A DNA stretch of 64,000 nucleotides from Actinoplanes aureus. GTDB lineage: Bacteria > Actinomycetota > Actinomycetes > Mycobacteriales > Micromonosporaceae. The notes beneath the pieces were generated by a model. The model saw only the letters and a program-made list of their open reading frames with translations. It was not told where the DNA came from and did not search any database. This document shows, one piece after another, positions 13,451 through 26,648 of this stretch; the first letter of the stretch is position 1, and each line of letters opens with the position of its first letter. Location: NCBI RefSeq assembly GCF_015704865.1, contig NZ_JADQTO010000030.1, positions 1 to 64,000 on the forward strand, read 5' to 3'. The position numbers and the translations under genes are program-made.

Positions 13451-13495
13451 GCACCGCCGGACTCTGGCGCGCGTTTCCAATTATTTGTGCCGCCG

Positions 13496-13524
13496 TTGTC
13501 GTGATTCCGTTGGCTGTCTAACGT
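13496..13524 (+). promoter_or_regulatory. Candidate promoter for the carboxyltransferase unit
   Basis: TTGTCG (13496-13501) and TAACGT (13519-13524) are separated by exactly 17 nt, a good match to an actinomycete housekeeping promoter. The start site would fall near 13531, shortly before the mini-ORF and the carboxyltransferase gene, which separates this unit from the lasso operon upstream. Confidence 0.5.
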
Positions 13525-13551
13525 CGTCGGCAATGTCGGATCGGAGGATTC

Positions 13552-13593
13552 GTGGATCTGAATCGCCGTCTCGTTCCGGTCGGTGGCCGATGA
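13552..13593 (+). CDS. Possible 13-codon leader ORF coupled to the carboxyltransferase
   Basis: A GTG at 13552, about 4 nt after GGAGG, opens a frame encoding VDLNRRLVPVGGR. Its TGA overlaps the ATG of the carboxyltransferase gene (ATGA at 13590). The downstream ATG lacks a clear ribosome-binding site of its own, so translation of this mini-ORF may deliver ribosomes to it. The alternative is a longer N-terminus for the carboxyltransferase beginning at ATG 13533. No peptide function is claimed. Confidence 0.3.
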   Translation: MDLNRRLVPVGGR

Positions 13594-15002
13594 CCGTCAC
13601 CATGAATCTGCCATCTTCGACCAATGCCGAATCCAGCGATCCGATTCATCGGATCGCGGCACTTCTGGACGCGTGTTCGCTGCGGCCGCTGCTGTTCTCC
13701 GGCGAGGGCGGCGTGATGGTCGCGCGCGGCACGGCCCGCGGCGTTCCCGTCATCGTTTTCGCCACCGACCCGCGGGTCATGGGCGGTGCGATCGGTGCTG
13801 CCGACTGCGACCGTATCGTGACGGCGATCGGCACGGCGTTGGCCGAACGCCTGCCCGTCGTGGGCATCTGGCAGTCCGGCGGCGCCCGGCTGAACGAGGG
13901 CCTTGCCGCGCTGGACGGCGTCAGCCGGGTCTTCGCGGCCAAGGTGCGTGCCTCCGGCCGGATTCCGCAAATCTCCGTGCTGGTGGGTCCGTCGGCCGGC
14001 GGCGCCGCTCACGGGCCGGCGCTGGACGACGTGGTGATCATGGCGAAGGCGGGGCGGATCTTGGTGACCGGGCCGGATGCGGTCCGCAGCGTCACCGGCG
14101 AGGACGTCAGCATGGAGTCCCTCGGCGGTCCCGACGTGCACGAACGCCGCTCCGGTGTGGCACACGTGGTGGCAGCCGACGCCGGTGCCGCGTTCCGGGA
14201 GGCCCGCGACCTGATAAGGCTGCTGGGTGCCCAGGGGATCTTCGAGCCGGAAGCGATCCGCCGGACGAGCGACCCGGGCGCATTCCTGCCGGAGCAGGCC
14301 CAGCGAGCCTACGACGTCAAACCGTTGATCAAGGCGATTCTCGACGACTCGGACTGGTCGGAGCTGCAACCACGCTGGGCCGCCAACGTGGTCACCGGCC
14401 TGGGCCGGCTCGCCGGCCGGACCATCGGTGTGGTGGCGAACAATCCGATCCGCGAGGGCGGCTGCCTGGACTCGCTCAGCGCGGAGAAGTCCGCCTGGTT
14501 CGTGCGGTTGTGCGACGCCATGGGCATCCCGTTGCTGGTCCTGGTCGACGTTCCGGGCTATCTGCCCGGTGCCGATCAGGAGGGGGAGGGCGTGGTGCGC
14601 CGTGCCGCGAAGCTGTTGCACGCCTTCGCGGACTGCAGCGTGCCCCGCGTGACGCTGGTGACCCGCAAGGCGTACGGCGATGCCTACGTGGCGATGAACT
14701 CGCGGGGCCTCGGCGCGTCGGCGGTCTTCGCCTGGCCGGGCGCGCGGGTGGCGGTCATGGGTGCAGCTCCTGCCGTGGAGCTCCCGCGTCGCGGGCGCGA
14801 CACGGCGCGGCCCGACCATCCGGACGCATCCTGCGCGGAGCTCGTCGCCGAGCACGAACGGACAGCCGGCGGAGTCGCGCACGCGCTGGAGATCGGCGTG
14901 GTCGACGAAGTCATCGAGCCGGCCGGCACACCGGACCGGCTGGTGCGCGCGTTCGCCGAGGCTCCACTGATCCGCGGCGACCACACGAACATCCCGCTCT
15001 GA
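13590..15002 (+). CDS. Acyl-CoA carboxylase beta (carboxyltransferase) subunit
   Basis: The protein has 470 residues of the biotin-dependent carboxyltransferase family (AccD/PccB-like). Visible features are GIWQSGGARLNEGLAAL, the oxyanion-type GPSAGGAAHGPAL, the second-half GRLAGRTIGVVANNP, VDVPGYLPGADQEGEGVVRRAAKLL and KAYGDAYVAMNSRGLGA. The partner biotin carboxylase / BCCP alpha subunit is not in the window and is probably shared with primary metabolism. The likely role is to make malonyl-, methylmalonyl- or a longer carboxyacyl-CoA extender for the PKS systems. It is slightly shorter than the usual 510-530 residues. The start at 13590 is supported by the overlap with the upstream mini-ORF; an in-frame ATG at 13533 is the alternative. 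Confidence 0.85.
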   Translation: MTVTMNLPSSTNAESSDPIHRIAALLDACSLRPLLFSGEGGVMVARGTARGVPVIVFATDPRVMGGAIGAADCDRIVTAIGTALAERLPVVGIWQSGGARLNEGLAALDGVSRVFAAKVRASGRIPQISVLVGPSAGGAAHGPALDDVVIMAKAGRILVTGPDAVRSVTGEDVSMESLGGPDVHERRSGVAHVVAADAGAAFREARDLIRLLGAQGIFEPEAIRRTSDPGAFLPEQAQRAYDVKPLIKAILDDSDWSELQPRWAANVVTGLGRLAGRTIGVVANNPIREGGCLDSLSAEKSAWFVRLCDAMGIPLLVLVDVPGYLPGADQEGEGVVRRAAKLLHAFADCSVPRVTLVTRKAYGDAYVAMNSRGLGASAVFAWPGARVAVMGAAPAVELPRRGRDTARPDHPDASCAELVAEHERTAGGVAHALEIGVVDEVIEPAGTPDRLVRAFAEAPLIRGDHTNIPL

Positions 15003-15069
15003 CTCTTCCAGGCTGCCCACTACCTTGAGCGCGCCACCGAGGCCGCCGTACCCGCCCGGAGGGGAACTG

Positions 15070-16974
15070 ATGCAGATATCAACGCTCGGACCGGAGCAAC
15101 ACCGTACGACCACGGTCGGCACCGCCGCTCCCGCGAAGCGGGTCGAGCAGCTGGACCGGGTAGTGATCAGATTCGCCGGTGATTCCGGCGATGGTATGCA
15201 GCTCACTGGTGACCGGTTCACCTCGGAGACCGCTCAGCTTGGCAACGACATCTCGACTCTGCCCAATTTTCCTGCGGAGATCCGTGCACCAGCCGGGACG
15301 CTGCCGGGTGTGTCCAGTTTTCAGGTGCATTTCGCTGACTATGACATTTTGACTCCGGGTGATGCGCCGAACGTGCTGGTGGCGATGAACCCGGCCGCGC
15401 TCAAGGCCAATCTGGCCGAGTTGCCGGCGGGTGCGGACATCATCGTGAACACCGACGAGTTCACTAAACGGAATCTGGCGAAGGTCGGATATGCGACCAG
15501 TCCGCTGGATGACGACTCGCTCAGTGAGTATGCGGTGCATCCGGTGGCGTTGACCTCGATGACGGTCGGTGCGCTGGCTGATGCCGGGGTTTCGAAGAAG
15601 GACGCCGAGCGGGCCAAGAACATGTTCGCGCTCGGCCTGCTGTCGTGGATGTACTCGCGGCCGTTCGAGTCCACGCTGCGGTTCTTGGAGCGTAAGTTCG
15701 CCAAACGACCGGAGTTGGTCGCGGCGAACAAGGCGGCGTTCCAGGCCGGCTGGAACTACGGCGAGACCACCGAGGCGTTCACGGTGCGCTACGAGGTGAA
15801 GCCGGCGAAGATGCGGCCGGGTACCTACCGCAACATCACCGGTAACCAGGCGCTGTCGCTCGGTCTGGTCGCCGCCGGCGTCCGTTCCCAGCTGCCGGTC
15901 TTCCTCGGCGCGTATCCGATCACCCCGGCCTCCGACATCCTGCACGAGCTGTCCAAGCACAAGCGGTTCGGTGTGACCACGATGCAGGCCGAGGACGAGA
16001 TCGCCGCGATCGGCGCCGCGCTGGGCGCCGCCTACGGTGGTGCGCTGGGTGTGACGACCACGTCGGGTCCGGGGGTGGCGCTCAAAGGCGAGACGATTTC
16101 TTTGGCGATCGCGTTGGAGTTGCCGCTGGTGATCGTGGATGTGCAGCGGGCCGGCCCGTCGACCGGGATGCCGACCAAGACCGAGCAGGCCGATCTGAAC
16201 ATGGCCCTGTTCGGCCGCCACGGCGAGGCACCGTTGGCGGTGATCGCCCCGAAGTCGCCGTCGGACTGTTTCCACGCCGCGATCGAGGCGGCCCGGATCG
16301 CGGTCACCTACCGCACCCCGGTGATCCTGCTGTCGGACAACTATGTGGCCAACGGCTCCGAGCCGTGGCTGCTGCCCTCCGTCGACGAACTCCCCGACCT
16401 GCAGGTGCCGTTCGCCACCGAGCCGAACACGGCGGACGGCCGGTTCCTGCCGTATCTACGCGATCCGCAGACGATGGCCCGGCCCTGGGCGGTGCCCGGC
16501 ACCCCCGGCCTGGAACACCGTATCGGCGGGTTGGAGAAGGCCGACAAGACCGGTGACATCTCCTACGACCCGGCCAACCACGAGTTCATGGTCCGCACCC
16601 GCCAGCAGCGCATCGACACGATCGCGGTGCCGGACGTGGACGTGGAAGACCCGGAGGAGAACGCCCGCGTCCTGGTGCTCGGCTGGGGATCGACCTACGG
16701 GCCGATCGGCGCGGCCTGCCGGGCGCTGCGCCAGCGCGGCCTGCCGATCGCGCAAGCCCACCTGCGGCACCTGGCGCCGCTGCCGGCCAACCTGGGTGAG
16801 GTACTGGCCGGCTACGACAAGGTGGTGATCCCGGAGATGAACCTGGGCCAGCTGGCCCAGCTGATCCGGGCCAAGTACCTGATCGACGCGGTGGCGTTCA
16901 ACCAGATCAGCGGCCTGCCGTTCACCGCCGCGACGTTGGAGAACATGCTCGAGGACGTGGTCAAGAATGGCTAA
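15070..16974 (+). CDS. korA: 2-oxoacid:ferredoxin oxidoreductase, fused gamma-alpha subunit
   Basis: The protein has 634 residues. The start at 15070 follows GGAGGGG six nt upstream; a TTG at 15025 is rejected. The N-terminal gamma domain begins RVVIRFAGDSGDGMQLTGDRF. The alpha, pyrimidine-binding part begins near residue 260 (GNQALSLGLVAAG, then GAYPITPASDILHELS) and contains TTTSGPGVALKGE. This is the actinobacterial KorA arrangement. With KorB it interconverts 2-oxoglutarate (or a related 2-oxoacid) plus CoA with the acyl-CoA, CO2 and reduced ferredoxin. Reduced ferredoxin could feed the nearby P450s, or the acyl-CoA could feed biosynthesis, but neither is shown. The stop overlaps korB. 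Confidence 0.9.
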   Translation: MQISTLGPEQHRTTTVGTAAPAKRVEQLDRVVIRFAGDSGDGMQLTGDRFTSETAQLGNDISTLPNFPAEIRAPAGTLPGVSSFQVHFADYDILTPGDAPNVLVAMNPAALKANLAELPAGADIIVNTDEFTKRNLAKVGYATSPLDDDSLSEYAVHPVALTSMTVGALADAGVSKKDAERAKNMFALGLLSWMYSRPFESTLRFLERKFAKRPELVAANKAAFQAGWNYGETTEAFTVRYEVKPAKMRPGTYRNITGNQALSLGLVAAGVRSQLPVFLGAYPITPASDILHELSKHKRFGVTTMQAEDEIAAIGAALGAAYGGALGVTTTSGPGVALKGETISLAIALELPLVIVDVQRAGPSTGMPTKTEQADLNMALFGRHGEAPLAVIAPKSPSDCFHAAIEAARIAVTYRTPVILLSDNYVANGSEPWLLPSVDELPDLQVPFATEPNTADGRFLPYLRDPQTMARPWAVPGTPGLEHRIGGLEKADKTGDISYDPANHEFMVRTRQQRIDTIAVPDVDVEDPEENARVLVLGWGSTYGPIGAACRALRQRGLPIAQAHLRHLAPLPANLGEVLAGYDKVVIPEMNLGQLAQLIRAKYLIDAVAFNQISGLPFTAATLENMLEDVVKNG

Positions 16975-17986
16975 CCCGGTGGAACTGAAACTGACCGCCA
17001 AGGACTTCAAATCCGACCAGGAAGTCCGCTGGTGCCCGGGCTGCGGCGACTACTCGATCCTGGCCGCGATGCAACGGTTCATGCCCGAGCTGGGCATCCC
17101 CCGGCACAACATCGTGTTCGTCTCCGGGATCGGCTGCTCATCGCGGTTCCCGTATTACATGAACACCTACGGGATGCACTCCATCCACGGCCGGGCCCCA
17201 GCGATCGCCACCGGCCTGTCCGCATCCCGCCCGGATCTGAGCGTGTGGGTGGTCACCGGCGACGGGGACGCCCTGTCGATCGGCGGGAACCACCTGATCC
17301 ACGCGCTGCGCCGCAACGTGAACCTGAAAATCCTGCTGTTCAACAACCGGATCTACGGACTCACCAAAGGCCAGTACTCACCCACCTCCGAAATCGGCAA
17401 AATCACCAAATCCACACCGGCCGGCTCCGCGGACTCCCCGTTCAACCCACTCTCCCTCGCGCTGGGCGCCGAAGCCACCTTCGTGGCCCGCACCATCGAC
17501 TCCGACGCCAAACACCTGCAATCAGTACTCCGCGCCGCCGCCACCCATCAGGGCTCCGCGTTCGTCGAGATCTACCAAAACTGCAACATCTTCAACGACG
17601 GCGCCTTCGAACTGATCAAAGACCCGTCAACCCGCGACGAACACCTGATCCGCCTGGAACAAGGCCAACCCATCACCTTCGGCACCGACGCCCGCTACTC
17701 GGTCGTGCACCCCGAAGGCAGCTTCGGACTGAAAGTACAAGAAGGCGGCACCCCGCTGATACACGACGCCACCGTCGACGACCCCGCCTACGCCTTCGCC
17801 CTGTCCCGCCTGTCCGGCTCCGACCTGACCACCACCCCCATCGGCGTCTTCCGCAACGTCCACCGCCCCTCCTACGACGAAATCGTCCGCAAACAAGTCC
17901 ACGACGCCAAAACCCAAGCCACCGGCACCCCCGAACAGATGCTCGGCGAACTCCTGAACACCGGCGACACCTGGACAATTCTCTAG
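16967..17986 (+). CDS. korB: 2-oxoacid:ferredoxin oxidoreductase, beta subunit
   Basis: The protein has 339 residues and overlaps the end of korA by 8 nt, so the pair is co-translated. Key features are the cysteine motif RWCPGCGDYSIL near the N-terminus, SGIGCSSRFPYY, and the thiamine-diphosphate/Mg motif GDGDALSIGGNHLIHALRRN with NLKILLFNNRIYGLTKGQ. The TPP-binding beta subunit binds an iron-sulfur cluster and decarboxylates the 2-oxoacid. The second half of the gene is rich in C on the coding strand compared with the first half, though both halves are intact. KorAB is usually a housekeeping pair, so its place inside a biosynthetic region is notable. A 207-nt gap follows with no clear terminator. 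Confidence 0.9.
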   Translation: MANPVELKLTAKDFKSDQEVRWCPGCGDYSILAAMQRFMPELGIPRHNIVFVSGIGCSSRFPYYMNTYGMHSIHGRAPAIATGLSASRPDLSVWVVTGDGDALSIGGNHLIHALRRNVNLKILLFNNRIYGLTKGQYSPTSEIGKITKSTPAGSADSPFNPLSLALGAEATFVARTIDSDAKHLQSVLRAAATHQGSAFVEIYQNCNIFNDGAFELIKDPSTRDEHLIRLEQGQPITFGTDARYSVVHPEGSFGLKVQEGGTPLIHDATVDDPAYAFALSRLSGSDLTTTPIGVFRNVHRPSYDEIVRKQVHDAKTQATGTPEQMLGELLNTGDTWTIL

Positions 17987-18190
17987 GGCGGATCGGCCTC
18001 TTTTCATATACCTCGCGGATCCAACAATTGGAACCGCAGTTGTCGTCGCATGCGGCAACGCCGAGGATCGATTCCTGTCCGGCACGATTCGGTTTCCTTC
18101 GCCCGTCCAGAATCGAGCGTCAACGCATTTCGGTATTCGCGGAGGCGCTATCCGCCGGCCGGTCCGGCGACAACGGAACCCTGAAGGTGA

Positions 18191-19624
<1,434 letters not shown>

Positions 19625-20278: not shown

Positions 20279-20569
20279 TCAGCCGCTGACGCGCAGACCC
20301 ACCGGGTCCCGGATGTCGCGCGTGGCGACCTCCTTGATCCCGTCGAGAAGTGTCAGGACGGCGCGCGCCGCCGGAAGGACCATGGCGCCGTCCTTGGTTA
20401 GTTCCGTACCGTCCGGGTGGCGCAGGAACAGCCGGGTGCCCAGCTCCTGCTCCAAGCATTTGATCTGGTAGCTGACCGCTGGTTGTGAGTATCCGAGCGT
20501 CGTCGCGGCGCGATCCATCCGGCCCGCCTCGACAATGGCGACGAATGTTCGCAGCTCCCGTTCGTTCAT
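20279..20569 (-). CDS. Short LysR-type DNA-binding protein (no effector domain)
   Basis: The 96-residue protein matches only the winged-helix DNA-binding region of LysR regulators: ELRTFVAIVEAGRMDRAATTLGYSQPAVSYQIKCLEQELGTRLF followed by the TKDG wing and the start of the linker helix (VLPAARAVLTLLDGI). The roughly 200-residue co-inducer domain is absent, and a strong terminator follows ten nt after the stop, so this looks like a naturally short protein rather than an interrupted gene. It is transcribed divergently from the first P450 across a 325-nt gap. It may be a pathway regulator that does not sense a small molecule, or a decaying remnant. Confidence 0.8.
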   Translation of the reverse strand: MNERELRTFVAIVEAGRMDRAATTLGYSQPAVSYQIKCLEQELGTRLFLRHPDGTELTKDGAMVLPAARAVLTLLDGIKEVATRDIRDPVGLRVSG

Positions 20570-22112: not shown

Positions 22113-22602
22113 TGCTGCCGCGCGGGCGGCGTACGGCGGTCAGCTGACCGACGCGGAACAGCGGCCGCCCGTCCGCGGTGGTCTCCCCGGACATGAACGC
22201 CGTGGCACCGTCGATCACCTCGTGCAGGCGCACGGTATGGCGGATCACCTCGCCGGGATAGGCGCTGCCGGAGAACTCGCACTGCCGGAGGCTTCCGGCC
22301 AGCGGGACCCAGTCCTGCCGGTCGGAAGCCGCTCCGGGCGTCTGCTGTTGCCGCAGGGCGGTGCTGCCCAGCCAGAGCAGGGCAGCCGACTGGCCGAACG
22401 ACTCCACCACCAGCGAGCGCGGGAAGGCGTACCGCTCGGCGGGCAGGCCTTCGGCGAGACCCTGATAGCAGAGGTCGCCGCCGCTGACCGCCTTGGCGGT
22501 GACGATGTGCGAACCCGGCTCCAGGTGCTCGACCCGGTCCACCAGGACGATGGGGTGGCGGACCGGGATGAGGTCGAGAATCCAGCGATAGTCCGGCGTC
22601 AT
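22096..22602 (-). CDS. Hotdog-fold dehydratase-like protein (FabZ-like, His site lost)
   Basis: The 168-residue protein starts at 22602 within a TGATG overlap with the preceding gene. It has the FabZ/FabA-like opening DLIPVRHPIVLVDRV and an active-site helix AFPRSLVVESFGQSAALL. The Glu of the helix is kept, but the catalytic GHFPG histidine is not evident (reads RYAFP). It probably pairs with the neighbouring hotdog protein as a heteromeric dehydratase, as in highly reducing type II PKS systems where two unlike hotdog subunits work together. It is the last gene of the minus-strand operon. Confidence 0.8.
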   Translation of the reverse strand: MTPDYRWILDLIPVRHPIVLVDRVEHLEPGSHIVTAKAVSGGDLCYQGLAEGLPAERYAFPRSLVVESFGQSAALLWLGSTALRQQQTPGAASDRQDWVPLAGSLRQCEFSGSAYPGEVIRHTVRLHEVIDGATAFMSGETTADGRPLFRVGQLTAVRRPRGSITAPA

Positions 22603-23012
22603 CAGATCGCTCCAGGCTCCAGGCGCAACGAGAGCTCGGCCACCGGCTGATCGCCGTGGCGTACGGTCACGGCCGCCGTGAGGGCCGGATCGCCCTCCCC
22701 GGCCGGCGTGAGGACCACCTCCAGATCGAGCAGGTGACCCTCGTGCATCGGGCGGCGCAGCCGGAGGCGACGGACGGTCGTGATCTCCCACCATCCGTCC
22801 GGCGCGGTCTCCACCGCCCGGCCGGCGGCCTGTCGCACGGTTTCCAGCAGGAACACGGCGGGATAGAGGATGAGACCGGGGAAGTGCCCGGACATGTAGG
22901 CGTCGGTACGCCGGACTGTCTTGGCGATGCGCAGGATCCAGCCCGTGTCCGTCCGGCTCACCGACATCTCGTCCACGGCGTCCAGCGGCCGGGCGTACGG
23001 CGTGCCGGTCAC
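22602..23012 (-). CDS. Hotdog-fold 3-hydroxyacyl-ACP dehydratase (FabZ-like)
   Basis: The 136-residue protein starts from a GTG at 23012 that overlaps the previous stop (GTGA), which fixes the start. The catalytic region is SGHFPGLILYPAVFLLETVRQAAG, with both His and Glu of FabZ-type dehydratases. It should remove water from 3-hydroxyacyl-ACP to give enoyl-ACP during chain building on the ACP of this operon. It is shorter at the N-terminus than the downstream hotdog protein, with which it probably pairs. Confidence 0.85.
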   Translation of the reverse strand: MTGTPYARPLDAVDEMSVSRTDTGWILRIAKTVRRTDAYMSGHFPGLILYPAVFLLETVRQAAGRAVETAPDGWWEITTVRRLRLRRPMHEGHLLDLEVVLTPAGEGDPALTAAVTVRHGDQPVAELSLRLEPGAI

Positions 23013-23392
23013 AGGAACCACACCTGCTCGTAGCCCGCCCACCGGACGGCGAGTTCCGTGGTGTCCAGCACCGCGCAGCCGGGCAGCACCGCCTCCGGGC
23101 CGAGGCCCAGATCCGCGAGGCTCCCGGCGTCCACATAGACGGTCGCACCGTTCCCGGTGAGGCCGCTGATCGCCGACCGCGGGTCCGCCGAGAGGGCGAC
23201 GGGCTCGCTGCCCAGCGTGACCTGCGGGACGTCTCCGGTCGGCCGGAGCGCGGCGGTCACGGACGTGCCTCGCAGCAGCAGGTCGATGCCGCCGAGCTGG
23301 GCAGCGAACATTCGCACGCCGTACAGCGCGTCGAAGAACTGTGCCTCGAGGCTGCCGCGGTAGCCCCGGTCCACGATCGCCAGATAGCCCAT
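23009..23392 (-). CDS. DsrF/TusC-like small protein
   Basis: The 127-residue protein has GGAGGAG just ahead of the ATG at 23392. By eye it follows TusC/DsrF: an N-terminal AIVDRGYRGSLEAQFFDALYGVRMFA, a central glycine-rich strand, and a C-terminal half ending ELAVRWAGYEQVWFL like the family's final strand. The position equivalent to the family cysteine (VCAASL in TusC) reads VDAGSL, so it has no catalytic thiol there, as expected of a structural partner. It is coupled to the dehydratase downstream by a GTGA overlap. The function in this setting is unknown. Confidence 0.65.
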   Translation of the reverse strand: MGYLAIVDRGYRGSLEAQFFDALYGVRMFAAQLGGIDLLLRGTSVTAALRPTGDVPQVTLGSEPVALSADPRSAISGLTGNGATVYVDAGSLADLGLGPEAVLPGCAVLDTTELAVRWAGYEQVWFL

Positions 23393-23394
23393 CG

Positions 23395-23808
23395 TCAAGC
23401 TCCTCCGATGTAGAGGGTCCGGCTGGCGGCGCTGATCGTGGCCGCCAGCCGGGCGTCCGAGCGCAGTCGCACCTGCTCGATGTGGCGGCCGGCACCCCGC
23501 TCGGCGCTGCACGCGGTGCAGACGATCCAGCCGAAGCGCCCGCGATGGGTGTCGATCATGTCGCGGATCACGCCGGCGGCCGAGGGGTATGACCCCGTGG
23601 TGTCGAGCAGGTTGACCGGCTTCACCGGGGCGAGCGTCTCCTGGGTCAGCATCGTGTTGTAGCCGCACGCCCAGACCCGGACCGTCCGTCCGGTGTCGAG
23701 CATGGCCCGTGACAACCGCAGCACCGTGGTGAGCGAGTCGTCGACGTGCGGGGGAGCGGTGAGCACCAGCAGCAGGTCCCACATGCGGCGATCGGCGGCC
23801 ACCGGCAT
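23395..23808 (-). CDS. DsrE/TusD-like small protein with the active-site-type cysteine
   Basis: The 137-residue protein starts at ATG 23808, which overlaps the preceding stop as TGATG. It resembles TusD/DsrE: LLLVLTAPPHVDDSLTTVLRLSRAMLDTG at the N-terminus and WIVCTACSAERGAG in the middle, the latter aligning with the ICVAAALRRG segment that holds the sulfur-carrying Cys in TusD. Cys97 is the equivalent residue, with Cys100 three positions on. Of the three DsrE-like proteins here it is the only one with a cysteine at this site. A persulfide-carrying role is inferred from the family and is not shown. Confidence 0.65.
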   Translation of the reverse strand: MPVAADRRMWDLLLVLTAPPHVDDSLTTVLRLSRAMLDTGRTVRVWACGYNTMLTQETLAPVKPVNLLDTTGSYPSAAGVIRDMIDTHRGRFGWIVCTACSAERGAGRHIEQVRLRSDARLAATISAASRTLYIGGA

Positions 23809-24149
23809 CAGTGCCACACCGCCCGCACCCGTTCGTCGCCGAGCAACCGCGCGACCTCCTCCATGCTGACCACGGCCGCACCGGCGACCAGCGACGTCCG
23901 GGGAATGGCCCGTTGCGCCAGCGTGAAGTCATCGGCCCAGACTTCCCCGCCGCCGGCCAGCAAGTCGGTGATCACTTGCGGTGTGCGTCCCGCGGCGACG
24001 CCGACGCCGTCGCCGACGAGCAGCAGGCGGACCCGATGGCCCGCTCGCACCAGCGTCAGGGCGTCCCGCAGGAACAGCTCCACCGTGTCGCCCTGCCGTG
24101 TCTCCACCAGGAGGTAGTCCGCGGTCTCCACGGGCGTCCCGATGCTCAT
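23808..24149 (-). CDS. DsrE-family (TusB/DsrH-like) small protein
   Basis: The 113-residue protein starts at ATG 24149, overlapping the ACP stop as ATGA. It has the family pattern DTVELFLRDALTLVRAGHRVRLLLVGDGV, then LLAGGGEVWADDFTLAQRAIP and VSMEEVARLLGDERVRAVW. The cysteine often found before the arginine is replaced (VWADD). Together with the next two genes it makes a complete three-subunit set like TusBCD/DsrEFH, which elsewhere forms a heterohexamer that relays sulfur. Nothing in the window looks like its usual acceptors (TusE/DsrC, MnmA, ThiS). Confidence 0.65.
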   Translation of the reverse strand: MSIGTPVETADYLLVETRQGDTVELFLRDALTLVRAGHRVRLLLVGDGVGVAAGRTPQVITDLLAGGGEVWADDFTLAQRAIPRTSLVAGAAVVSMEEVARLLGDERVRAVWH

Positions 24150-24438: not shown

Positions 24439-25431
24439 TCAGCGGTGGGCGTCGTGCCCCGCCGCCGTGAGCGCGCGTGAGGCCTGGCGAGGTGCCTCGA
24501 CGAGGGTTCCGCAGTAGACGCCGTCGGCCGGGTCGCCACAGACCGCGAGGAGGGTCCCGGTGGCGCCGGCAGCGAAGCGGGCTGCCGCGTGCACGCACTG
24601 GAGCAGGCCCAGCACACTGGAGGGGGTACCCCAGTCGTGGCCGAGCTCGATCGGCCGGACCTGGCCGATCAGCCCGTGCTCGGCGGCTCCTCCGGGCCCG
24701 TACCAGCCGTCCACGGCGGTCAGGTCGACGCCGAGCCGGGGCAGAAGATCATCGATGGTGGCGGCGCGCTGAGTGGCGCTCAGCACGGCCTGTGGCGGCC
24801 GCTTGGTGTCGACCTCGTCACGTGCCGGTCCGAGCACCATCGCCACCGCGCCGTCCAGTGCGCGAGGCGTGCCGGCGAAGGAGCGGACCACGTCGTTGTC
24901 CGGCTCCACCGCTACGACGAGGACGTGCTCGGCCCGGCCGGCACGCAACAGCGAGCCCGCCCAGCGCAGCGCGTCCAACCCGCCGGTCGAGCCGTTGCAG
25001 ACCGTCAGGTTCGGGCCACGTAGGCCGTACCGGATCGCGGCCTCTGACGCGATCACGTTGCTGGACAGGTTGGGCGTGTTGATCGGGCTGACCAACCGGG
25101 TGCTCCGGTCCTGCTGGATCGTGTCGATGGTCGCGGCGACCGAGTCGAGGTTGCCGTAGTTGGAGGCCGCGATCACCGCCACCGAGGAGGCGTCGACCGC
25201 GACGTGCGACTTGGCGTCGTCGGGATCGCTCAGCAGGCCGGCGTCGCGCAACGCCTCGTACGCTGCGACCAGCGCCAGCTGGGTCGCCCGGTCCTTGTAG
25301 CGCAGGCCTTTGCGGCCGATCCGGGCCGCCGGGTCGACCGGCTCCGGGACCTGCGGATCCAGCACGGCGTCGCGGTGGTCGGCACCGGGCAGAGCCACAC
25401 CGATGCCGGTAACGAACAGCTGCTCGCTCAT
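24439..25431 (-). CDS. KS-like chain-length-factor partner
   Basis: The 330-residue beta-ketoacyl synthase-like protein is shorter than a full KS (about 400). The nucleophile region reads NLTVCNGSTGGLDAL, so a cysteine (Cys145) is present, but the LHGTGT histidine motif is absent and the second histidine region is changed to LGHDWGTPSSVLGL. These losses point to a non-catalytic chain-length-factor partner of the adjacent KS. The start overlaps the KS stop (ATGA), the usual coupling of KS/CLF pairs. Confidence 0.85.
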   Translation of the reverse strand: MSEQLFVTGIGVALPGADHRDAVLDPQVPEPVDPAARIGRKGLRYKDRATQLALVAAYEALRDAGLLSDPDDAKSHVAVDASSVAVIAASNYGNLDSVAATIDTIQQDRSTRLVSPINTPNLSSNVIASEAAIRYGLRGPNLTVCNGSTGGLDALRWAGSLLRAGRAEHVLVVAVEPDNDVVRSFAGTPRALDGAVAMVLGPARDEVDTKRPPQAVLSATQRAATIDDLLPRLGVDLTAVDGWYGPGGAAEHGLIGQVRPIELGHDWGTPSSVLGLLQCVHAAARFAAGATGTLLAVCGDPADGVYCGTLVEAPRQASRALTAAGHDAHR

Positions 25432-26567
25432 CGGTTGCCCTCCACGACGGTCACGGCGTTGATGCCTCCGAACCCGAAGGCGTTGATCTGTGCGAGCCGG
25501 GCGTCAACCGGGACCGCCTGCTCGCGAGCGAGGCGGAAGCCACTCATCTCGTCGATCGGCTTCTCCAGCGTCGGCACGGGCACCACCCGGCCGGCGTCCA
25601 TGCTCTGTAGCGCGGTGATCAGACTGTGCAGGCCGGAAGCGCCCGAGGTGTGGCCGGTCATCGACTTCATCGCGGTGCACACCGGTCGAGCGAGGTCCTC
25701 GCCGTACACCTCGCGCATCGCCAGCGCCTCACCGAGGTCGTTGGCGATCGTCCCGGTTCCGTGCAGCATGACCAGATCGATGTCGGCGGGCGTGACACCC
25801 GCCCGCTGGTGGGCGGCTCGCATGGCACCGGCGATGCTCCCGGCCTCAGGGGCGGTGGGGTGGTGCGCGTCGCAGTTCACCTCGACGCCGCGCACCCAGC
25901 CGCGCGGAGACCCGCCCGTCCCGGGCTCGCGGCGCAGCACCACGGCGGCCGCTCCCTCGCCGAGGATGGTTCCCCGGCGCTCCCGGTCGAACGGCCGCAC
26001 CGCGTCCGGCGGGATCGACTGCACCCGGTCGGCGACGCCGAACATGCTCTCGGTGATCGAGTCCGTGCCCGCGACCACGACGGTGTCGGCCTCGCCGGCC
26101 GAGAGCAGGTCGGTAGCCAGCGAGAGCGCGTAGAGCGAGGCGGAGCAGGCGTTGGAGAACGTGTGCGTGTCCCAGGCGCCGAACCGGCTTCGCACGGCGG
26201 CGCCGAAGTGCAGCTCGGCGGGAGTCACCGCGGCGCCGGACCCGCGCCACAGCTCGACCGAGCGCAGCTCCCGCAGGCCGGTGCCGACCAGCACCGGGAC
26301 GTCCCCGAGATCATCGGACAGCCCGGCGTCGGTCAGGGCCTCGGCGATCACGCTCAGCAGGAAACCGGTGGCCCGTCCGGGGCGGTCCTTGGAGTCGTCC
26401 CGGTCGTCGATCTCGAAGAGCGAGTCGCTGGTGTACCAGTCCGTGGTGAAGCCGCGGATCGGGGCGAGACCGCTGCGACCGGCGCAGAGGGCGTCGAACG
26501 TCTCCCGAGCCGTCGACCCGAGGCTGCATATTGCTCCCATGCCGACGATCGGCCATCGTTCAACCAT
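25428..26567 (-). CDS. Type II PKS ketosynthase (KS-alpha)
   Basis: The 379-residue ketosynthase carries a full triad: Cys141 in SNACSASLYAL, His269 in LHGTGT and His306 in KSMTGHTSGASG, with GFGGINAVTVVEG at the end. The ATG at 26567 follows an AGGGG sequence; an in-frame TTG two codons upstream is less likely. It opens the minus-strand operon KS, CLF, ACP, three DsrE-like proteins and two dehydratases, which looks like the highly reducing type II PKS that makes polyene or cinnamoyl-type starter chains for peptides. No ketoreductase is present in the window, so one must come from elsewhere. Confidence 0.92.
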   Translation of the reverse strand: MVERWPIVGMGAICSLGSTARETFDALCAGRSGLAPIRGFTTDWYTSDSLFEIDDRDDSKDRPGRATGFLLSVIAEALTDAGLSDDLGDVPVLVGTGLRELRSVELWRGSGAAVTPAELHFGAAVRSRFGAWDTHTFSNACSASLYALSLATDLLSAGEADTVVVAGTDSITESMFGVADRVQSIPPDAVRPFDRERRGTILGEGAAAVVLRREPGTGGSPRGWVRGVEVNCDAHHPTAPEAGSIAGAMRAAHQRAGVTPADIDLVMLHGTGTIANDLGEALAMREVYGEDLARPVCTAMKSMTGHTSGASGLHSLITALQSMDAGRVVPVPTLEKPIDEMSGFRLAREQAVPVDARLAQINAFGFGGINAVTVVEGNR

Positions 26568-26648
26568 GCTCAACCCCTATCTGTGGGGCATCCGGTAGCC
26601 GGAGCCGGACCAATTCTCCGGTTGCTCGCCCGCCTTTTCCCAGGGCTT

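Follow-up and report, generated by a model that had tools for sequence, protein, structure and literature searches.

The sulfur-relay heterohexamers TusBCD of Escherichia coli and DsrEFH of Allochromatium vinosum each derive from a row of three small genes in the DsrE superfamily, of which one encodes the active-site cysteine. The set described here from Actinoplanes aureus (Pa, Pb and Pc, collectively the trio) likewise consists of three adjacent small genes of this superfamily, with a Pb whose model is structurally near DsrE and TusD and a Pa that profile comparison places nearest to TusB and DsrH. It differs from the two described systems in its B-D-C-like order (42 loci of 44, compared with D-C-B in E. 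coli), in a third subunit, Pc, that is not cleanly of the C/F type, in two extra invariant cysteines of Pb, in its link to PKS genes, in the absence of TusE/DsrC from 33 genomes with the trio and in scores that fall under the Pfam cut-off. YchN, a single-gene representative of the DsrE family that aligns as a single protein, is tied with the top structural matches of both Pb and Pc and shares a Cys-x-x-Cys...Arg-Gly motif with Pb; we know of no three-gene set or PKS link for YchN.

The cinnamoyl-type clusters (skyllamycin, WS9326A, kitacinnamycin, youssoufene and globisporamic acid) share ketosynthase (KS), chain length factor (CLF), acyl carrier protein (ACP), KR, dehydratase (DH) and DsbA-like genes with the contig studied here, and the trio occurs in just part of the clusters of this type. 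According to the accessible text of two papers, the cinnamoyl isomerase of such clusters, which is accompanied by KS, CLF, KR and DH, turns an E double bond ahead of ring closure (PMC6510318; PMC9381841). None of the papers listed in a search of the open-access literature made a relevant connection between DsrE, TusD, TusBCD or DsrEFH and polyketide clusters. Subscription papers lay mostly outside that search, among them work reportedly published in J Am Chem Soc in 2022 and 2021 in which the formation of cinnamoyl and o-dialkylbenzene groups was reconstituted in vitro, so an earlier description is possible.

Gene organization of the locus

The window, that is, the whole stretch of 64,000 nucleotides that was analysed, contains the three minus-strand open reading frames (ORFs) described in the earlier note, spanning 23009-24149. 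They lie among the following genes.

25428..26573, minus strand: ketosynthase (KS alpha); PF02801 and PF00109; best homologues in loci L002-L005 64-69%
24439..25431, minus strand: chain length factor (CLF, KS beta); PF00109 E 2e-16; 44-52% to homologues in L002-L005
24146..24397, minus strand: acyl carrier protein (ACP); PF00550 E 3e-15
23808..24149, minus strand: Pa, TusB/DsrH-like subunit, 113 aa, from hhalign and profile; C-terminal Val-Trp-His invariant
23395..23808, minus strand: Pb, TusD/DsrE-like subunit, 137 aa, from profile and model; start ATG 23808-23806
23518..23520, minus strand: codon of Pb Cys97, from MAFFT alignment to Cys78 of E. coli TusD (NC_000913)
23009..23392, minus strand: Pc, subunit of the DsrE superfamily intermediate between DsrF/TusC and DsrH/TusB, 127 aa, from profile and model
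22602..23021, minus strand: dehydratase DH1, FabA-like, start uncertain (GTG 23021, 23018 or 23012); 34-41% to trio neighbours in L003-L005
22096..22626, minus strand: dehydratase DH2, start uncertain; 51-55% to DH2 of L003-L005

The operon order is KS-CLF-ACP-Pa-Pb-Pc-DH1-DH2. The coupling by overlaps to the ACP before and the dehydratase after, as claimed in the earlier note, holds: the ACP stop and Pa start share 4 nt (ATGA), and the possible starts of DH1 (GTG at 23021, 23018 or 23012) lie within the 3' end of Pc. Inside the trio, the Pa stop and Pb start share 1 nt (TGATG), and Pb and Pc are adjacent without overlap, with 2 nt between stop and start. The FabA-like match of DH1 in Pfam (E 0.0013, 18.8 bits) is under the cut-off of 23 and a Pfam search with DH2 gave no match; both proteins align to genes adjoining the trio in L003-L005. 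Elsewhere in the window, long NRPS-type ORFs were recognised by eye from their translations. So were carboxyltransferase-like, 2-oxoacid:ferredoxin oxidoreductase-like and DAHP-synthase-like genes near the PKS operon (13485-19624), for which a role in precursor supply is possible. A 96-aa ORF at 20279-20569 encodes a LysR-type HTH, the rest of the regulator apparently being missing.

Family placement and predicted fold

DsrE (PF02635) was the sole family named by hmmscan for each of Pa, Pb and Pc, with E-values of 0.047, 0.11 and 0.14 and scores of 14.3, 13.1 and 12.8 bits that do not reach the gathering cut-off of 22.7. Although each match is non-significant singly, it is hardly chance that all three proteins should name the same family out of 24,736. 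An NCBIfam search of the trio returned chance matches, none of them relevant, and a single-sequence phmmer search of Pb against the PDB gave weak unrelated matches and nothing else. Family profiles built from 42-44 sequences and run against PDB sequences had a member of the DsrE superfamily as top match in all three cases, the E-values being mostly weak: YchN was the top match of the Pb profile (E 0.0026) and MTH1491 that of the Pc profile (0.0043), followed there by unrelated proteins and, weakly, by ST0148 (0.89). The matches of the Pa profile were weak, with YchN at 0.17, an unrelated sugar-binding protein at 0.29, DsrH at 0.41 and TusB at 0.42. When the three were aligned by hhalign to TusB, TusC and TusD of E. 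coli (NC_000913), the row maxima fell on the diagonal, with 57% for Pa and TusB (6.6% for TusC and 0.5% for TusD), 27% for Pb and TusD and 1.1% for Pc and TusC, the last of which is no evidence taken alone.

AlphaFold models were made for Pb and Pc (pLDDT 88.7 and 86.5). The Pb model matched DsrE (2hy5_A; Z 15.3, rmsd 2.1, 116 aligned), YchN (Z 14.7, rmsd 2.4, 113 aligned) and TusD (2d1p_A; Z 14.5, rmsd 2.2, 114 aligned) so similarly that the three are tied, the best unrelated fold being at Z 6.4. The Pc model was closest to DsrH (2hy5_C; Z 15.1, rmsd 1.9, 100 aligned), followed by YchN and ST0148 (both Z 14.6), with the best unrelated fold at 5.8. Foldseek puts DsrF ahead of DsrH for Pc, and in VIA-align DsrH and TusB are the best chains of their entries. 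On the models, both Pb and Pc are predicted to have the DsrE-superfamily fold; Pa, judged from family profiles with weak E-values, appears to belong to the same superfamily with TusB/DsrH as its nearest relatives. The superfamily proposed for all three genes in the earlier note is supported by the profiles and by the models of Pb and Pc. Its further proposal that each gene represents a different subunit type stands for Pa (B/H-like) and Pb (D/E-like), but Pc is split between DsrF and DsrH and is not cleanly TusC/DsrF. The genome of the window has another DsrE-family match, above the Pfam cut-off, on a different contig (G000:C26:62775-63071).

Conserved cysteines of Pb

Pb is the best conserved subunit, with a mean column identity of 65% vs 52% and 51% for the other two. 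Its Cys97, which MAFFT aligns to Cys78 of E. coli TusD (a residue we take to be catalytic), is Cys in 43/43 sequences, whereas neither Pa nor Pc has a conserved cysteine (at most 12/42 and 9/44 in any column), in agreement with the suggestion that only the D-like member carries a cysteine of the TusD type. Two further cysteines, Cys48 and Cys100, have to be added to that description, since they too are invariant (43/43). In the secondary structure of the Pb model, Cys48 follows the strand 43-47, the strand 92-97 ends at Cys97 and Cys100 lies in the helix after it; the fold would bring the three close together in space. The motif Cys-x-x-Cys-x3-Arg-Gly of Pb aligns to a similar motif of YchN.

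Occurrence of the trio and its link to cinnamoyl-type clusters

Considering the best 10 candidates per genome in the Streptomyces and class samples, we found the trio in 32 of 392 Streptomyces genomes (39 matches) and, at E <= 0.001, in 7 of 394 genomes of the class sample, the window's own and one weak match included. Among genomes of the window's taxonomic order it occurred in 4/397, again counting the own genome. Four non-Streptomyces genomes besides the window's hold the trio (G162, G338 and G065 from the order, and G688 from the class sample), as do six Streptomyces plasmids and four named Streptomyces contigs; none was found in the viral contigs searched. A set peculiar to this operon, as had been supposed, is therefore not what we see: it recurs in these Streptomyces and other genomes, mostly with cinnamoyl-type PKS genes. 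Pb and Pc are present in 44/44 loci, and in 42 loci all three genes could be measured, always in the order Pa-Pb-Pc and with spacings between -4 and +50 nt, two of these loci being from one genome; the contig of L022 ends before Pa, and Pa of L009 was recovered via tblastn only. In the annotated records L045-L047, eight of the nine trio genes bear the label hypothetical and the ninth is assigned to the DsrE family.

The annotated locus L045 (NZ_CP107856) served as reference for comparing gene contexts in 38 regions with the trio, which represent 37 distinct loci (L004 and G764 are one genome). ACP0, KS1, KS2, CLF2, a hydrolase, a 4HBT-like protein, CLF1, ACP, two DH, KR and a DsbA-like protein accompany the trio in most of them; some regions miss genes of the L045 set or score as the variants seen in the window. 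In most loci the trio adjoins ACP and dehydratases, or CLF1-ACP-dehydratases. The kcn4-kcn15 genes would equal the L045 core without the trio in number (12), by a comparison of counts rather than of gene order.

From the composition of these clusters, the DsbA-like protein is presumably the cinnamoyl isomerase, a relative of which is termed glutathione-dependent in the accessible part of PMC9381841. It is encoded in all 32/32 Streptomyces genomes with the trio vs 81/392 overall (best 8 candidates per genome; best E <= 1e-40, counted by hand, a split match of 6e-26 in G950 being excluded; 113 genomes at E <= 0.001). The hypergeometric probability of this association is 3.6e-25 when relatedness is ignored, a value that overstates independence because the genomes are related; judged by the genome identifiers listed, the trio and isomerase searches covered the same 392 genomes. 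For 32 of the 39 trio matches the contig also carries an isomerase no more than 40 kb away (one just a fragment at a contig end); for the other seven it is on other draft contigs in four and none is near in three. By region, the isomerase is in the DNA of 29/38, in two more after extension and in a further two about 39 kb away by coordinates; three have none, and two (G905 and L046) end too soon to tell. Conversely, 49/81 genomes with the isomerase had no trio match, which means that ring formation as such can do without it, and 27 isomerase regions from genomes without a Pb match contained neither Pb nor Pc, one of them having Pa.

The contig of the window (118,513 bases) carries a DsbA-like gene at 91,939-92,526. 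It belongs to a block (82019-92526), about 60 kb from the trio, of CLF1, DHa, ACP0, KS1, hyp320, CLF1, DHb, KR and the DsbA-like gene itself, beside which a 4HBT-like protein is also encoded. The trio of the window therefore belongs to a cinnamoyl-type NRPS/PKS cluster whose PKS genes form two blocks.

That the trio always goes with a PKS is contradicted by three loci. In G805a it occurs with PKS genes and no isomerase or KR nearby, and in G803 and G1100:C22 it adjoins an NRPS-type gene, the type II PKS core being absent from the 78-80 kb covered (flanks of ~20 kb and ~60 kb). The NRPS-looking ORF next to the trio in the latter two (G803:C3:3282195 and G1100:C22:76986) measures ~5,600 aa and is accompanied by an ABC transporter.

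Loss of the trio

A tree of KS1, KR and isomerase was built from 53 of the 65 regions, leaving out 12 without KS1, KR or isomerase in the region DNA. By inspection, its large clades are all with or all without the trio, with nested absences. In one region (G918:C351), an intact Pa flanked by the 4HBT-like gene and CLF1 is all that is left of the trio, although the PKS is kept; in another (G961a), all three genes are gone and the PKS genes are kept. Near relatives that lack the trio and keep the PKS show it to be accessory. It seems to be an old part of these clusters, and one that the PKS core can apparently do without.

Candidate sulfur partners

The earlier note had pointed out that no TusE/DsrC acceptor accompanies the trio, and this applies well beyond the window: PF04358 was found in 0/33 trio genomes, the control being matched in E. 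coli. TusA is encoded in 24/24 trio genomes tested (of 33) vs 19/20 genomes without the trio, and as a dedicated sulfur donor it was rejected on account of this equal frequency. The TusA copy of G1077, the one Streptomyces copy read, is part of a 463-aa cysteine desulfurase fusion, the desulfurase being recognised by eye. Besides the trio, the annotation of L045-L047, in a gene table that is incomplete by its own description, names no sulfurtransferase, cysteine desulfurase or sulfur carrier.

The DsbA-like isomerases of the window's contig and of related loci often have a variable linker that terminates with -GGCG or -GGCA, which resembles a built-in thiol arm with a penultimate Cys, presumably as in TusE/DsrC. 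This ending occurs in 23/29 regions with the trio (22/28 with L004 and G764 counted as one genome) and in 20/27 without it, so the arm has no link to the trio and was rejected as its acceptor, although it may still serve as one in clusters that have both.

Proposed role of the trio

We favour, at a probability of about 0.4, a TusBCD/DsrEFH-like complex in which the thiol or persulfide of Cys97 would act transiently on an ACP-bound chain and leave a product without sulfur. The analysis shows the genes, their superfamily, the fold of Pb and Pc, the invariance of the cysteines, the linkage to cinnamoyl-type PKSs, the absence of TusE/DsrC and the dispensability of the trio in some lineages; the complex itself, its persulfide chemistry and the donor, substrate and step are inferred. 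In favour of this reading are the fold of Pb and Pc, the alignment of Cys97 to TusD Cys78, the invariant cysteines, the motif in common with YchN, the constant gene order, the tie to the isomerase and to ACP and dehydratase genes, the presence of TusA and the sulfur-free formula of the gla product. Against it stand the equal frequency of TusA in genomes without the trio, the absence of TusE/DsrC, the many isomerase genomes that have no trio, the losses in G918 and G961a and the three loci with no isomerase nearby. Pa, Pb and Pc would assemble into a heteromer devoted to highly reducing type II PKSs of the cinnamoyl type, with Pb as the working subunit and Pa and Pc as non-catalytic partners. 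Cys97, partnered by Cys100 and Cys48, may form a thiol adduct or a persulfide, and the sulfur could come from the housekeeping cysteine desulfurase/TusA. It would then act on the ACP-bound polyene during dehydration, isomerisation or ring formation, either as a nucleophile or in a redox capacity, and such transient use would leave none in the product. A recurrent, conserved, Cys-bearing candidate complex of sulfur-relay fold belongs to many cinnamoyl peptide and lipid clusters. It hints at an unrecognised thiol or persulfide step in pathways whose route to the ring is still under study, and its presence or absence divides cinnamoyl clusters into two classes whose chemistry can be compared.

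A bolder and distinctly improbable form of this proposal makes sulfane sulfur a traceless reagent of arene formation: a Cys97 persulfide would act on the ACP-bound polyene or cyclohexadiene, either as the nucleophile for E/Z isomerisation or as a two-electron oxidant for aromatisation that leaves as sulfide. Were it true, a sulfur relay would serve carbon-ring chemistry and the product would be free of sulfur.

The main rival, only somewhat less probable than transient sulfur chemistry at Cys97, is a thiol-redox or acyl-tethering enzyme with the DsrE fold and no sulfane sulfur. Here Cys97, Cys100 and Cys48 would undergo dithiol-disulfide cycling, or Cys97 would accept the chain that ACP carries. 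In its favour are the invariant cysteines present in addition to that of the TusD type, the lack of DsrC in the 33 genomes and the lack of a sulfur donor or carrier gene in the (incomplete) annotation table of L045-L047. Our searches, however, point to no cofactor site, and Cys-x-x-Cys is found at the same place in YchN, so that the pair alone does not mean a redox role.

Likeness to sulfur relays would also suit a trio that puts sulfur into the final product as a thioether, thiophene, thioacid or similar group, one of the roles raised in the earlier note; the gla cluster makes this improbable. In the available text of PMC9381841, gla comprises 23 consecutive genes (GlaA-W, SGL6302-6324), with KS3-CLF3 as GlaJ-K, CLF1 as GlaQ, ACP as GlaR, DH as GlaS/T, KR as GlaU and the isomerase as GlaV. 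Between CLF3 and CLF1, the trio-bearing cluster of G1077 has five genes, an SDR resembling enoyl reductases, a hydrolase and the three of the trio. GlaL-P likewise number five, and the hydrolase was absent by tblastn from eight trio-free regions with a related SDR. Given the matching gene count and order, GlaN-O-P is probably the trio, going by gene letters and order. Product 1 of gla, which like product 2 is lost in the glaE mutant, is C20H30O2 (PMC9381841, as far as its accessible text goes), so that, provided gla has the trio, none of the sulfur stays in this compound.

A scaffold, as also suggested before, or a complex that docks ACP or CLF, in either case without catalytic chemistry, would fit the position of the trio, mostly adjoining ACP, CLF or dehydratase genes, and the want of a conserved Cys in Pa and Pc. 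We consider it slightly less likely still, since Pb is the best conserved subunit with Cys48, Cys97 and Cys100 invariant in 43/43 and since two loci have the trio apart from type II PKS genes. Those same two loci and the lineages that lost the trio and kept the PKS would agree with a housekeeping-type sulfur or stress role (tRNA thiolation, thiol-adduct repair or self-protection) merely co-located with the PKS, which is the least credible of these readings given that just 32/392 Streptomyces genomes have the trio, every one of them with the isomerase, and that in the window it is coupled to ACP and dehydratase.

Other genes around the trio

A gene-content comparison of the 38 regions with and the 27 without the trio, made with a crude gene caller that found Pa, Pb and Pc in just 19, 18 and 26 of the 38 and produced many false frames, showed an alpha/beta hydrolase in 12/38 vs 0/27, along with a few small families. 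Three families exclusive to regions without the trio (10, 10 and 7 of 27) were taken for clade effects. By tblastn, among regions with the enoyl-reductase-like SDR, the hydrolase was near in 12/12 with the trio vs 0/8 without it. As a companion gene it was rejected: 11 of the 12 regions are in one tree clade (the exception being G065), and it directly adjoins the trio in just 6/12. An SDR of this kind, matched by Pfam to enoyl-ACP reductase, occurs in 20/65 regions, that of G1077 among them, in contrast with the accessible text of PMC9381841, according to which cinnamoyl clusters are without an enoyl reductase.
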